Assembly (NCBI GenBank): GCA_902795825.1
Contig: CADBML010000193.1
Coordinates: 1 to 36,407 of the forward strand
Reading direction: 5' to 3'
DNA length: 36,407 bases
Origin: an uncultured Bacteroidales bacterium
GTDB taxonomy: Bacteria > Bacteroidota > Bacteroidia > Bacteroidales > Muribaculaceae
The position numbers and the translations under genes are program-made. Positions 5,948 to 32,136 of the stretch are shown piece after piece. The notes under the pieces are model-generated. The model saw only the letters and a program-made list of their open reading frames with translations. It did not search any database and was not told the DNA's origin. Each line of letters opens with the position of its first letter. The first letter of the stretch is position 1.

Positions 5948-5978
5948 TTGCAAAGTTACGTAATTTAGATTATTTTTG
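5948..5978 (+). promoter_or_regulatory. fmt promoter
   Basis: TTG (5948-5950) and TATTTTTG (5971-5978) are separated by 20 bp, matching the Bacteroides -33/-7 arrangement. Transcription would begin near 5985. This decides the fmt start: the upstream TTG at 5976 would lie inside the promoter, so the ATG at 6009 is used. Confidence 0.65.
5951..5958 (-). promoter_or_regulatory. -7 element of the porin promoter
   Basis: On the minus strand this reads TAACTTTG, a full match to the Bacteroides -7 consensus TAnnTTTG, 9 bp before the porin start codon. No good -33 TTTG is seen at the usual spacing. It lies inside the spacer of the fmt promoter on the other strand. Confidence 0.5.
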
Positions 5979-6008
5979 CATAAAATTTTGCCAAAAAACA
6001 ATTTAATA

Positions 6009-6944
6009 ATGAGAAAAGACGACTTAAGAATAGTGTTTTTGGGCACTCCTGAATTTGCGGTCGAAAGCCTACGCCGTCTCGTTGACGGCGGGTATAATGT
6101 GGTTGGCGTTGTGACGATGCCCGACAAGCCGGCGGGCCGTGGCCACAAGATGTTTGAATCGCCTGTTAAACTATATGCAAAAGAGCATGGTCTCCACGTC
6201 ATGCAGCCAGCGAAATTGAAGGAAGAATCATTTATAGAAGAACTTGAAAGTTTGCATGCCAATCTGTTTATTGTCATCGCATTCCGTATGTTGCCTGAGG
6301 TAGTGTGGAGAATGCCCGAATTAGGCACATTCAATCTGCATGCTTCCCTGCTCCCGAAATATCGAGGCGCGGCTCCGATAAATTGGGCTGTTATTAACGG
6401 CGAGACGGAAACTGGCGTTACCACATTTTTCCTCAAGCACGAAATCGACACCGGCGACATCCTCCGGCAAGAGAGAATCCCGATTAAACCTGACGATAAT
6501 GTCGGTGATGTTCATGACCGTCTGATGATGCTTGGAGCTGATTTGACAGTTGACACTGTTGAACACATCATTGCAGGGACACTAAAGCCGATTCCCCAAG
6601 ACCAGCTGCTAAACGGGGCAGAGCCTACACCTGCGCCAAAAATATTTCGTGAAACATGCCATATTGATTGGAATAAACCTGCCGCGTCAATCCACAATTT
6701 AGTTCGTGGATTATCGCCTTATCCTGCAGCATGGACCGAAATCGAGGGAAACGTGGTCAAAATTTTCAGGACACGCCTATCAGAGAGGAAATCAGAAGTC
6801 GTGCCAGGCACTGTCGTTGTAGAAGGGCGCCGTCTTTTCGTGGCTGCGATCGACAAACTTCTCGAAGTGGAGGAGCTTCAGCCTGCAGGGAAAAAGCGGA
6901 TTTCGGCTTTAGATTTCATCAATGGTTATAGGGGCTTTCTATAA
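6009..6944 (+). CDS. fmt: Methionyl-tRNA formyltransferase
   Basis: Fmt transfers a formyl group from 10-formyltetrahydrofolate to Met-tRNA(fMet) in the cytoplasm, producing the initiator for translation. The 311-residue protein has the usual family length. The N-terminal Rossmann-type domain starts with RIVFLGTPEFA (7-17). The catalytic region shows NLHASLLPKYRGAAPINWA (109-127) with Asn109 and His111, and Asp147 in HEIDTGD. The C-terminal tRNA-binding OB-like domain follows from about residue 205 (PAPKIFRETCHIDW, LVRGLSPYPAAW). The gene is transcribed away from the porin gene, and an R1 repeat begins right after its stop. Confidence 0.97.
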   Translation: MRKDDLRIVFLGTPEFAVESLRRLVDGGYNVVGVVTMPDKPAGRGHKMFESPVKLYAKEHGLHVMQPAKLKEESFIEELESLHANLFIVIAFRMLPEVVWRMPELGTFNLHASLLPKYRGAAPINWAVINGETETGVTTFFLKHEIDTGDILRQERIPIKPDDNVGDVHDRLMMLGADLTVDTVEHIIAGTLKPIPQDQLLNGAEPTPAPKIFRETCHIDWNKPAASIHNLVRGLSPYPAAWTEIEGNVVKIFRTRLSERKSEVVPGTVVVEGRRLFVAAIDKLLEVEELQPAGKKRISALDFINGYRGFL

Positions 6945-7187
6945 ATTGCACGTTCAACAAGATTTTATAAAGAACGATAATGAACTCTTTCGCAAAGAGG
7001 TCAACTAAACAGCAACAGTAATGAACTCTTTCGTAAATTCAGGATTATATTCGAATCTACTTGGCGGTCAGTCGGTCACAATGCCCGCATTGCTCCCTCT
7101 TTCCTGCCAAGCATCTTCCAAATATCCTCTCTGAATTTCGTGAAAGGCAATTTATAAGGCATTTTAAGACATCTTATAGAAATCTCC
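6945..7187 (+). repeat. Dispersed intergenic repeat R1, copy B (upstream of rpsP)
   Basis: The copy has a head (GCACGTTCAA near 6949, AACAGCAACA near 7010), a nested palindromic core at 7035-7138 and a tail containing GGCAATTTATA. From 7022 to 7099 it matches copy D (17870-17950) with about one difference. Core pairs: AAATTCAG (7035-7042) with CTGAATTT (7131-7138), CTTGGC (7060-7065) with GCCAAG (7106-7111), CAATGC-CC-GCATTG (7079-7092). Two changes are specific to this copy: an extra partial duplication containing a CTCTTT/AAAGAG hairpin (6985-6999), and an insertion of about 20 bp in the tail. The rest of the 343-bp gap holds the rpsP promoter. Confidence 0.85.
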
Positions 7188-7209
7188 TATAAAAAATAAG
7201 TTAAAACCG

Positions 7210-7287: not shown

Positions 7288-7824
7288 ATGGCAACAAAAA
7301 TCAGATTACAACGTCATGGCCGTAAGAACTATGCGTTTTATCCTATTGTTATCGCCGATAGCAGGGCACCACGAGATGGTAAATTTATTGAAAGGATAGG
7401 TTCTTATAATCCGAACACTAATCCTGCTACAATAACTTTGAATTTCGAAAGGGCTTTGTATTGGGTAAATGTAGGAGCTCAACCCACCGACACCGTGCGC
7501 AACATCCTTTCGCGCGAAGGAGTCATGCTTATGAAGCACCTCCAAGGTGGAGTAAAGAAAGGTGCTTTCGACGAAGCAGAGGCACAGCGCCGCTTCGACG
7601 CATGGAAGAACCAAAAGCAAGCCGCTCTCGACAAAGTTAAGGCTGGCGAAGCTGACAAAAAGGCTAAAGAGGCAAAGGAACGCCTTGACGCAGAAAAGGC
7701 TAAGAACAAAGCGAAAGCTGAAGCTCTTGCCAAGAAAAAAGCTGAAGCCATCGAAGCCGCAAAGGCTGCCGCTGAGGCTGAAAATGCAGAAGAAGCTCCT
7801 GCCGCAGAAGAAAGCGCTGAATAA
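7288..7824 (+). CDS. rpsP: 30S ribosomal protein S16 with Lys/Ala-rich tail
   Basis: S16 binds 16S rRNA in the body of the small subunit and helps its assembly. Residues 1 to about 85 are a normal S16 domain: [38 protein letters not shown], the strand [22 protein letters not shown] cut short here, and the end of the fold around residue 80. The total of 178 residues is about twice the Escherichia coli protein. The extra C-terminal part (about 100-178) is a Lys/Ala/Glu-rich helical extension seen commonly in Bacteroidetes S16, so it is not a fusion artefact. The gene stands alone with its own promoter and terminator. Confidence 0.97.
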
Positions 7825-8005: not shown

Positions 8006-8127
8006 GGCGCCTGTTTCACCGTTTTTTCCAGTAAGAATAAAATCCCATGTAGTCCGCAAAGCGTCAAAACATCAGTTGGATGTTATCATCAAAACGTAAA
8101 TGACCGTTTCGGGTTAAAACGATGTTG
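8006..8127 (+). repeat. Dispersed repeat R2, copy 1 (upstream of sppA)
   Basis: This segment matches 13654-13806 in the same order and orientation: a CTGTTTC-CCG-TTTT block, CAAAGCGTCAAAACATC (8057-8073, identical 17 bp) and ATCATCAAAACG (8085-8096, identical 12 bp), then diverged GGGT and GATG pieces. AACATC and GATGTT near 8068-8084 could form a small hairpin. It ends about 180 bp before sppA and about 55 bp before that gene's -33 box. The remaining part of the 482-bp gap holds the rpsP terminator and the sppA promoter. Confidence 0.7.
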
Positions 8128-8306: not shown

Positions 8307-10091
8307 ATGAAGCAATTCTTTATCTCGTTTTTTGCAACTATCGCGGGAATTTGGGCCTCCGCATTGCTTGGCTTTTTTGTGCTTATTTTAGTAATCGGTT
8401 TCTCAATCGCTAATATGTCGATTGGCGAAAACGTTCCCGTTAAAGTTGAGAAGCATTCAGTGCTTTACATGGATCTTGGTTGTACTGTCACCGAGCGCAA
8501 AACCACGCCCAACATTTTGGATGACTTTTACGGCAACAATACCGCCACCATGGGGCTTAACGACATGGTCAAGGCTATACGTGAGTCGGCAAGCGACGAC
8601 CGTGTCGAGGGCATCTATCTCGACTGCAACGGTGTTTATGCCGGCGCGGCTACACTTAAATCAATTCACGACGAGCTAAAGGAATTTAAGAAATCTGGGA
8701 AATGGATTATTGCGTATGGCGATTCCTACAGTCAGAGCGACTATTACCTGTCGAGCCTTGCCGATTCAGTATATCTTAACCCCGTGGGTGCTGTAGATAT
8801 CCACGGAATGGCCGGCATGATAATGTTCTATAAGGACCTCCTCGACAATGTGGGCGTTGATATGGAAGTGTATAAAGTCGGGACCTACAAAAGCGCAGTA
8901 GAACCATTTATTCTAAGCGACATCAGTGAGGCCAACCGTGAACAAGTGACGGCATATATTTCAGCCGTCTGGCATGAAATTTCAGCCGACATCGCTGTCA
9001 ACCGTTCGCTTACCGAAGAGAAAATCAATCAGCTCACCGACAGCATAGTTTCAACCTACGACCAGAAGCGCCTTGTGGGCGAAAAATTGGTTGATCGCCT
9101 ATGCTATCGCCACGAAGTGGAGGATGTCCTCGCTAAATTGACCGGTAAAGACACCCCCGACGATGTTAACTTCGTGCCCGTAGAGGACTATGTCGCCACC
9201 ATCAACGATCACAACTCATCTAAGAACCCGACAATAGCTGTTCTCTATGCGGAGGGTGACACTGTCGATACGGCATCGAGGGGAGTGGGCAGCACTCAGA
9301 TTGCAGGCGATGAGTTTGCGCCTCAAATTCTTGACTTGGCCGAAGATGAAGATATTGATGGCTTGGTGTTGCGCGTCAATTCAGGCGGCGGCAGCGCATT
9401 CGCGTCAGAGCAGATTTGGGAGGCTCTTGAGGTGTTCAAGGCGAGCGGCAAACCGTTCGTCGTATCTATGGGCGACTATGCTGCCTCAGGCGGTTATTAT
9501 ATATCAACGGGTGCAGACGAGATTTATGCCGAACCCACTACAATAACCGGCTCAATTGGCATATTCGGACTCAAACCCACGGTCAGCAAGGCGATGAAGA
9601 AAATCGGAGTCAATGTGGCCACGGTTAGCACAAGTCAGAACAGCATCATTATGAACATCATGCAGCCTTCGACACCCCAGCAGGCAAAAGCGATTCAAGA
9701 GTCGGTCAATAGAGGGTACGAGACTTTCGTTGGCCGTTGCTCTACGGGGCGTAAAATGCCGGTCGATTCCATAAAGGCCATTGCTGAAGGTCGTGTTTGG
9801 GACGCTGTCACAGCAAAAAAAATCGGCCTTGTCGATAAACTCGGTTCACTCGACGACGCAATTAAGGCTGTTGCTAAAAAGCTAAACTGTTCCGATGATA
9901 AATATAATGTTGTTGAATATCCCGACCAAAAATTCGAGTGGTGGGAGCAACTGATGAATATGTCGTCGCAGTACCACGCATCGATATTACAGAAAGAACT
10001 GGGTGAATCGTACAAATACTATTTGGCTATCAGACGTTTCAACAATATAGAAACATTGCAATGCCGTATGCTGCCAGTCGAAATTAAATAG
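8307..10091 (+). CDS. sppA: Signal peptide peptidase SppA, 67-kDa type
   Basis: SppA is a membrane-anchored serine protease that degrades cleaved signal peptides with a Ser/Lys dyad. The 594-residue length fits the long, duplicated type. One N-terminal membrane segment spans about residues 5-34. The Lys of the first half is Lys195 in VGTYKSAVEPF, equivalent to Lys209 of the E. coli enzyme. The nucleophile is Ser363 in RVNSGGGSAFASEQ, followed by MGDYAASGGYYIS and the TGSIGIFG stretch. The usual NSPGGS is NSGGGS here. The start ATG fits a promoter about 95 bp upstream. lpxK follows after 127 bp that contain a shortened R1 repeat. Confidence 0.95.
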   Translation: MKQFFISFFATIAGIWASALLGFFVLILVIGFSIANMSIGENVPVKVEKHSVLYMDLGCTVTERKTTPNILDDFYGNNTATMGLNDMVKAIRESASDDRVEGIYLDCNGVYAGAATLKSIHDELKEFKKSGKWIIAYGDSYSQSDYYLSSLADSVYLNPVGAVDIHGMAGMIMFYKDLLDNVGVDMEVYKVGTYKSAVEPFILSDISEANREQVTAYISAVWHEISADIAVNRSLTEEKINQLTDSIVSTYDQKRLVGEKLVDRLCYRHEVEDVLAKLTGKDTPDDVNFVPVEDYVATINDHNSSKNPTIAVLYAEGDTVDTASRGVGSTQIAGDEFAPQILDLAEDEDIDGLVLRVNSGGGSAFASEQIWEALEVFKASGKPFVVSMGDYAASGGYYISTGADEIYAEPTTITGSIGIFGLKPTVSKAMKKIGVNVATVSTSQNSIIMNIMQPSTPQQAKAIQESVNRGYETFVGRCSTGRKMPVDSIKAIAEGRVWDAVTAKKIGLVDKLGSLDDAIKAVAKKLNCSDDKYNVVEYPDQKFEWWEQLMNMSSQYHASILQKELGESYKYYLAIRRFNNIETLQCRMLPVEIK

Positions 10092-10104
10092 GGGATTTTC
10101 TGTT

Positions 10105-10202
10105 AATTTCACGTTTGAATGGTTTAATAAAGAACAGTAACAACAATTAATTTTAACAACATCCTCTCTGGATTTTCGAAAGGCAATTAATAGAAATTCC
10201 CA
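10105..10202 (+). repeat. Repeat R1, copy C (internally deleted, upstream of lpxK)
   Basis: The head (TTTCACGTTTGAA, AACAGTAACAACAA) and the end of the element (ATCCTCTCTG, CGAAAGGCAATTAATAG, AAATTCCC) are present, but most of the palindromic core is missing. The element ends 16 bp before the lpxK ATG and fills almost the whole sppA-lpxK gap. It supports the idea that head and tail are retained when the core is lost. Confidence 0.75.
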
Positions 10203-13653: not shown

Positions 13654-13806
13654 TGGCTTCTGTTTCGCCGCTTTTCGATTGCAATTGAACCGTTTAGCTC
13701 TCAAAGCGTCAAAACATCCGCCAGGGTGCTTCCCTTGAAATCCACTTCAAAAATAGAATCGCAATCATCAAAACGAGAATGACAGATTTGGGTGAACAAA
13801 TGATGA
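13654..13806 (+). repeat. Dispersed repeat R2, copy 2 (upstream of gyrA)
   Basis: It shares CTGTTTCGCCG-TTTT, CAAAGCGTCAAAACATC (13702-13718) and ATCATCAAAACG (13764-13775) with the copy upstream of sppA, in the same order. The distance from the end of the repeat to the start codon is about 174 bp here and 180 bp at sppA. It is about 30 bp longer than copy 1, the difference lying mostly between the two identical blocks. The rest of the 475-bp prs-gyrA gap holds the two promoters and AT-rich DNA. Confidence 0.7.
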
Positions 13807-17782: not shown

Positions 17783-17830
17783 GAGTGGATATGGGAAGCT
17801 ACGTTATATTGTTATGCGGCATTCTATATA

Positions 17831-18015
17831 TTCCACGTTCATAGTGATATCAAATTAAACAGCAACAATAAAGAACTCTTTCGTAAATTCAGGATTATAT
17901 TCGAATCTACTTGGCGGTCACTCGGTCACAATGCCCGCATTGCTCCCTCGCCCCCGTCAAGTATCTTCTAAATATCATCTCTGAATTTCCTGAAAGGCAA
18001 TTTATAGAAATCCCC
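17831..18015 (+). repeat. Repeat R1, copy D (upstream of the DUF1599 gene)
   Basis: A complete copy: head TTCCACGTTC and AACAGCAACAA, palindromic core (AAATTCAG 17885-17892 with CTGAATTT 17981-17988; centre CAATGC-CC-GCATTG 17929-17942) and tail GGCAATTTATAGAAATCCCC. It is nearly identical to copy B through the core. Together with the terminator before it and the promoter after it, it accounts for most of the 387-bp gap. Confidence 0.85.
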
Positions 18016-31931: not shown

Positions 31932-31950
31932 CGATATGGGAAGTTCTATT

Positions 31951-32136
31951 AATTCCATGCTCAACAGTTTTCATAACAGGCAGTAACAAAAATGCACTTT
32001 TTCGTAAATTCAGGATTATATTTGCATCATGTTGACATTCATTCGGTCAGAATGCCCGCATTGCTCTCTCGCTCCTGCCAAGCATATTCCAAATATCCTC
32101 TCTGAATTTCCTGAAAGGCAATTAATGGGAATCCCC
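31951..32136 (+). repeat. Repeat R1, copy E (upstream of the MBL-fold gene)
   Basis: A complete but more diverged copy: head TTCCATGCTCAACAG and GGCAGTAACAA, core AAATTCAG (32006-32013) with CTGAATTT (32102-32109), centre AATGCCCGCATT (32051-32062), and tail GAAAGGCAATTAATGG. The middle CTTGGC arm is lost while its partner GCCAAG remains. The tail ends 42 bp before the start codon. Together with the two divergent promoters it fills the 354-bp gap. Confidence 0.85.

Follow-up and report, generated by a model that had tools for sequence, protein, structure and literature searches.

Insertion sequences (ISs) with DDE transposases are usually viewed as being recognized through double-stranded tips, and it is in HUH elements that conserved, covarying, strand-specific, and rigidly spaced hairpins at both ends are known. 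IS200/IS605 elements encode an HUH transposase and carry subterminal strand-specific hairpins at both ends, without inverted tips or target duplications. In IS10 and IS50, fold-back structures give protection against outside transcription. The elements examined here are, by analogy, like IS200/IS605 in having strand-specific subterminal hairpins at both ends, but differ in their DDE transposase, true inverted tips, target duplications, and far longer hairpins.

The closest described miniature transposable elements (MITEs) are those of Porphyromonas gingivalis, in which BrickBuilt, MITE239, and MITE464/PgRS derive from the IS5 family, represented by ISPg1, ISPg3, ISPg4, and ISPg9 (PMC4596501). 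The hairpin MITEs described below share with them a host in the Bacteroidales and the lack of an internal transposase and, in the class with GAG tips, also GAGNCTGTT-type tips matching those of IS5-family ISs (PMC4596501). The published text on the P. gingivalis MITEs does not contain the word hairpin and gives the BrickBuilt interiors as tandem repeats (PMC4596501). In the MITEs found here, by contrast, a conserved hairpin stands at a constant spacing from one of the tips; the two groups are set apart by description.

MITE copies in the window and its genome

The window analyzed is a stretch of 36,407 nucleotides from an uncultured Bacteroidales bacterium of the Muribaculaceae (contig CADBML010000193.1). 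The repeat R1 found in it is a MITE, being short and non-coding, with terminal inverted repeats (TIRs) and target duplications. An earlier note on this DNA had called the element MITE-like, which is borne out both by these termini and by related hairpin elements that share tips with IS5-family transposons. Copy B, on the minus strand at 6931–7187, is 257 bp long and corresponds to the 200-bp type with insertions. Its TIRs are GGGGCTTTCTATAAATT and TATAGAAATCTCC, and the 4-bp target duplication TATA flanks it on the left (6927–6930) and on the right (7188–7191). The element overlaps the 3′ end of fmt (5976–6944) and lies between this gene and rpsP (7288–7824), just upstream of the latter.

Two further copies are also on the minus strand. 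Copy D (200 bp, 17816–18015) has its hairpin at 17880–17991, exactly 24 bp off the right tip, and the diverged copy E (199 bp, 31938–32136; core at 32046–32067) obeys the same 24-bp spacing between hairpin and right tip; in copy B, a 22-bp insertion lies in this interval. A 111-bp deletion derivative with two TIRs and no hairpin (10091–10201) and a solitary right TIR fragment (669–690) lie on the same strand.

Complete elements elsewhere in the genome measure 199–200 bp, or in some cases 238–257 bp with insertions, and end in the TIRs GGGGNTTTCTATWAATT. Tip matches numbered 172, versus 3 for a reversed control, and at least 42 separate matches to the hairpin region were found in the 2.15-Mb genome. 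The target duplications are AT-rich and 4 bp long (TATA/TATA at copy B, AATA/AATA at L002, and TTAA/TTAA at C115), with one mismatch in several copies. The hairpin elements explain a type of interspersed repeat that is abundant in genomes of the Muribaculaceae and other Bacteroidales and that lies at many contig ends in this assembly, where many of the 220 contigs begin or terminate within a MITE copy. Head-to-tail MITE dimers with a near-constant CCCC-TC-GGGG junction were observed at six loci of this genome (L003, L008, L009, L011, L018, and L026), an arrangement that abutted-end intermediates would produce, as would a dimer that had spread as a unit.

Fold, conservation, and covariation of the palindrome

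Three complementary pairs are present in copy B. The outermost, AAATTCAG (7035–7042) with CTGAATTT (7131–7138), is centered at 7086.5, and both the middle pair, CTTGGC (7060–7065) with GCCAAG (7106–7111), and the innermost, CAATGCCCGCATTG (7079–7092), are centered at 7085.5. The earlier note had placed all three on one center near 7085.5; they are nested, but not perfectly concentric. The nested palindrome is real and far above chance expectation, and it forms part of a longer hairpin of 112 nt (7030–7141), whose internal loops are tandem G.A mismatches. Folded as RNA, the minus strand of this stretch reached −46.5 kcal/mol (z = −8.25), a value equaled by 0 of 200 dinucleotide shuffles, and as ssDNA it reached −19.9 (z = −5.4), whereas the plus strand folded to −30.9 only. 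Copy B matched the R1 covariance model over the same coordinates with 86.5 bits, which is the match of a training member, copy B being among the sequences from which the model was built. The outermost and innermost pairs, said to be present in copies D and E also, are both kept in D, where the middle pair is altered (CTTGGC with GTCAAG, a G.T pair). In copy E, the outermost pair is kept and the middle pair altered, and the innermost is short by its first base pair (GAATGC-CC-GCATTG).

Outside the genus, only about 28 bp of the element could be matched. The sole part conserved between families is a 22-bp core, GGAGC-N-ATG-CGGG-CAT-N-GTGAC on the minus strand of copy B (7075–7096; plus strand GTCACAATGCCCGCATTGCTCC), which is the only survivor in other Bacteroidales. 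It occurs there in some 30 families of repeats whose arms and tips are unrelated. A search of 297 genomes from the window's bacterial family found the pattern GTCACNATGCCCGCATNGCTCC in 40 (reversed control, 0), and the core pattern was also found in records named as Muribaculaceae, Prevotellaceae, Bacteroidaceae, Paludibacteraceae, Barnesiella, and others; phage contigs did not yield the core. Among Muribaculaceae isolates, Paramuribaculum intestinale DSM 100749 has copies. Most core columns are fixed by construction through the patterns with which the families were collected. Although left unconstrained by the search, both N positions pair in 28 of 28 exact-core representatives (G-C 14, A-T 11, T-A 2, G-T 1), the lone G-T being a chance match within a Sphingomonas gene, and the next pair outward is G-C in 17 and A-T in 9. 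Nearly all family representatives fold into one minus-strand 112-nt hairpin with G.A/A.G tandems as its loops; the second loop, which the search did not select for either, reads GA/GA in 24 of 29 representatives. One complete genome, from a different family, has cores with a re-paired stem (GGAG-GATAG-CGGG-CTATC-TGAC) within 174–180-bp elements that are mostly decayed. Under strict filters, the R1 model matched in 11 of 295 genomes of the order, and among 392 genomes of the phylum it gave no match beyond the window's own genome.

Compensatory change between families is massive, in keeping with the selection on a folded strand that the earlier note had suggested. In 29 family representatives, 86% of the cells were paired (66% when shuffled), double-change cells numbered 155 (53 when shuffled), and covariation was 0.524 (0.165 when shuffled), with 0 of 500 shuffles equal on each of the three measures. 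This between-family signal was lost when the partner was slid by 1–3 columns. An alignment of IS ends, fitted to the model, had 94.6% of its cells paired and 160 double changes versus 49 in shuffled alignments. Among the 23 copies of the window's own genome, covariation was 0.091 versus a background of 0.088, and double-change cells numbered 15 versus 6.7. Covariation was thus clear across distant families and autonomous ISs but nearly absent among own-genome copies, so selection would appear to have acted on the IS-end lineage and not visibly on the resident copies.

The strength of fold and covariation would also suit a small RNA that stands on its own, or a mini-gene coding for an SVTMPA peptide, that MITEs carry and that is under selection for a function in trans in the host. 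A 37-codon ATG frame (MNSFVNSGLYSNLLGG..SVTMPALLPL; 7022–7132, plus strand of copy B) does cross the core in most copies of the own genome. This frame is not conserved between families, however, is barely more open than the other two (medians of 66, 56, and 55 nt), and contains an in-frame TAG in the families with a T/A core. No Rfam model matched the hairpin at its gathering threshold, with two weak chance matches lying outside it; insertions are unbiased relative to genes, and many copies are decayed. A host function of this kind is therefore considered unlikely.

Hairpin MITEs and autonomous IS5-family elements

Automatic detection of tips and duplications under strict scoring solved 61 MITEs. 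The hairpin-side tip lay 90–92 bp off the core start in 58 of these, a distance that holds over at least five tip sequences, and the opposite tip lay 79 to 115 bp from the core (outliers, 49 and 151). R1-type MITEs therefore have one hairpin end at a fixed distance, whereas the distance to their other inverted repeat varies. The tip classes of hairpin MITEs are GGGG/GGTG..TTCTATAAAT with 4-bp duplications, GAGNNTGTTT with 3-bp TNA duplications, CCCAAATCGGTCATTA with 5-bp duplications, GTAAT/AGTA, and GAAGTTGTTT. Three Prevotellaceae loci (L080, L124, and L133) are hairpin MITEs of the CCCAAATCGGTCATTA class with its 5-bp duplications, and no partner was found for these tips. An IS4-family element of ~1.2 kb (L344, G113:C3) has tips AGTASATGACAAAAATT that resemble the hairpin-MITE class AGTAGSTGNTCAAAATT, suggesting that some hairpin MITEs may also use IS4-type transposases.

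Searches of the window's genome (G000) with PF01609 and NF033580 gave no match, and neither transposase profiles nor tip pairs led to an autonomous partner for the family with GGGG tips and 4-bp duplications. Among the genes beside core copies, no recurrent transposase or other partner was found. Of the tip pairs considered as candidates, that on C81 encloses polysaccharide genes, those at L259, L096, and L061 contain ordinary genes, and a pair at 704–706 kb in G520 is a decayed MITE.

Parent ISs were located in related bacteria through their transposases, by the NF033580 model and then as relatives of one transposase, with no use made of the hairpin. An intact 1259-bp IS in G316 (L386/L398) has the tip GACCCCATCCCACAAA, a TTA duplication, two inverted hairpins, and a 263-aa IS5 transposase that scored 141.6 bits against an NF033580 cut-off of 110. 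L399, L400, L402, L404, and L410 resemble it, and L408 has one model-detected hairpin. Like the IS1031-like group of the IS5 family (NF033580), these elements have a DDE transposase, tips that are of the GAGNNTGT type or related to it, and TNA duplications of 3 bp (TTA, TGA, or TAA in L386, L399, L400, L402, L404, and L410). Unlike that group, they carry two 112-nt hairpins 24 bp inside the tips, and twin-hairpin ISs that are intact measure 1.02–1.28 kb, whereas sisters from the same bacterial family that lack the hairpin measure about 0.87–0.90 kb.

The ends of this clade share one architecture, a TIR followed, from 24 bp inside the tip, by a hairpin of ~112 nt on the inward-reading strand. 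In seven tip-solved autonomous ISs, the covariance match started 24 bp from the tip in 13 of 13 solved ends, and the folded strand read inward from the tip at all hairpin ends. When the inward strand was compared with its complement at the 14 ends of seven ISs, it was more stable by 12–25 kcal/mol at 12 and by 10 kcal/mol at one more. The remaining end, on the left of L408, lacks a hairpin. MITEs would have derived from twin-hairpin elements through internal deletion, a route supported by two partly deleted 650-bp intermediates (L389 and L392) in which both hairpins are kept.

In a transposase tree, the eight hairpin-bearing members form one clade (support 97/95), and 20 others, including short IS5 elements from the same bacterial family, fall across the branch. 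A model scan of 16 sister or outgroup IS5-type loci gave zero hairpins. Sister IS5 clades transpose without a hairpin, as seen from multiple copies with intact target duplications, and the short hairpin-less clade shares identical or near-identical tips with several hairpin MITEs of the GAG-tip class (L419 is identical to L145, and L417 is close to L173). Because of these matching tips, the hairpin seems to persist in elements that appear to use the transposase of another clade.

The earlier note had proposed a search for a RAYT or other transposase gene flanked by the same ends. IS5-family parents with hairpin ends were found in related bacteria, but neither a RAYT recurring beside cores nor a partner belonging to the window family was. 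The putative IS5 origin of the window family draws on the common hairpin and geometry, not on common tips. A REP-like element, with a RAYT (Y1) transposase that moves or binds it, would account for GGAG at the 5′ foot of the hairpin on the minus strand and for a general form like that of tetranucleotide-tagged REPs (PMC3733652). Like the GTAG-/CGTC-tagged REPs (PMC3733652), R1 has a short tetranucleotide-flanked palindrome in many intergenic copies, but its tag is GGAG/TGAC, its palindrome forms the apex of a 112-nt hairpin within a TIR element, and no RAYT was found with it. The Y1 profile PF01797 found no transposase in G000, G049, G238, G113, G292, G275, or G145, all unclosed assemblies; at E 0.001, it was absent from the window's genome and from the near-complete, core-rich G049, G113, and G292, yet present in many core-free genomes. 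A RAYT gene never recurs beside cores, and the long inverted repeats, the target duplications, and descent from DDE ISs also speak against this origin. With no Y1 match in the own genome and source elements that encode DDE (IS5-family) transposases, the REP-like assignment is highly improbable.

Candidate roles of the hairpin

The hairpin has the look of a structural component of transposon ends that had not been described before, and not of a REP or an RNA gene of the host; no description of it was found in the open-access literature, a search whose scope falls short of proof of absence. We think it somewhat probable that the palindrome represents the hairpin found subterminally in IS5-type transposon ends, serving mobility rather than the neighboring host genes. 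A role of the end in mobility is favored over host regulation or control of the transposase by the symmetry of the two ends, the rigid spacing, the fact that gene-less MITEs retain the hairpin, and the lack of a host-gene orientation bias. Orientation relative to neighboring genes was unbiased (65 of 124 and 68 of 124), which disfavors a host-regulatory role. DDE transposases would mobilize the MITEs in trans through tip recognition, and the transposase or a host factor would recognize the folded single-stranded hairpin, as inward-strand ssDNA or as RNA, within the transposon end. Strand polarity and the G.A loops indicate that the folded single strand is what matters; they fit RNA and ssDNA alike and do not tell between the two. 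Against a need for the hairpin, the sister clades move without it, one suffices in MITEs, and several hairpin MITEs have tips identical to those of the hairpin-less clade, so that the hairpin may go unread by the transposase responsible for their movement.

An alternative role is that of an RNA insulator. Transcripts entering from outside on either side would fold the inward strand, transposase read-through would be blocked (with an antisense effect at the other end), and MITEs would keep the hairpin as baggage. The stable strand is the inward-reading one at both ends, the tandem G.A loops and a bulged A look RNA-like, and the upstream hairpin sits between the tip and the transposase gene, so that a structured inward-reading transcript at an IS end would recall IS10/IS50. 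In contrast to IS10/IS50, the twin-hairpin ISs have hairpins at both ends, and these do not overlap the transposase start. The downstream hairpin is just as strong, yet unable to shield that start; in L398, the upstream hairpin stops about 100 nt short of the likely start codon and leaves it uncovered. Insulation does not call for a rigid 24-bp spacing, and the hairpin is kept in MITEs that have no gene. Insulation against read-through is possible but doubtful, and a structural end module for mobility is most likely.

A stronger form of the mobility role, proposed tentatively and with rather low confidence, is that IS5-type ends are partly read as folded strands and that the strand-specific 112-nt hairpin 24 bp inside each tip is required for, or gates, transposition. 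Such gating could couple transposition to replication or to RNA, and the module would be old enough to persist in MITEs that switched to the tips of other transposases. If functional, the hairpin would give the transposase class that is most common a further checkpoint, a structural one. The covariance model is ready for use in annotating hairpin repeats in Bacteroidales genomes.

Other repeats were also observed in the window. Three partly palindromic units (TGTTAACCTTGTTAAGGGGTTAACAAGGTTAACAGGGTTAACAGCC..) lie at 988–1333 with a spacing of 147–149 bp, and an unrelated second interspersed repeat at 8045–8117 and 13690–13796 consists of two similar segments of 29–33 bp in conserved order (CCATGTAGTCCGCAAAGCGTCAAAACATC; ATCATCAAAACGTAAATGACCGTTTCGGGTTAA).
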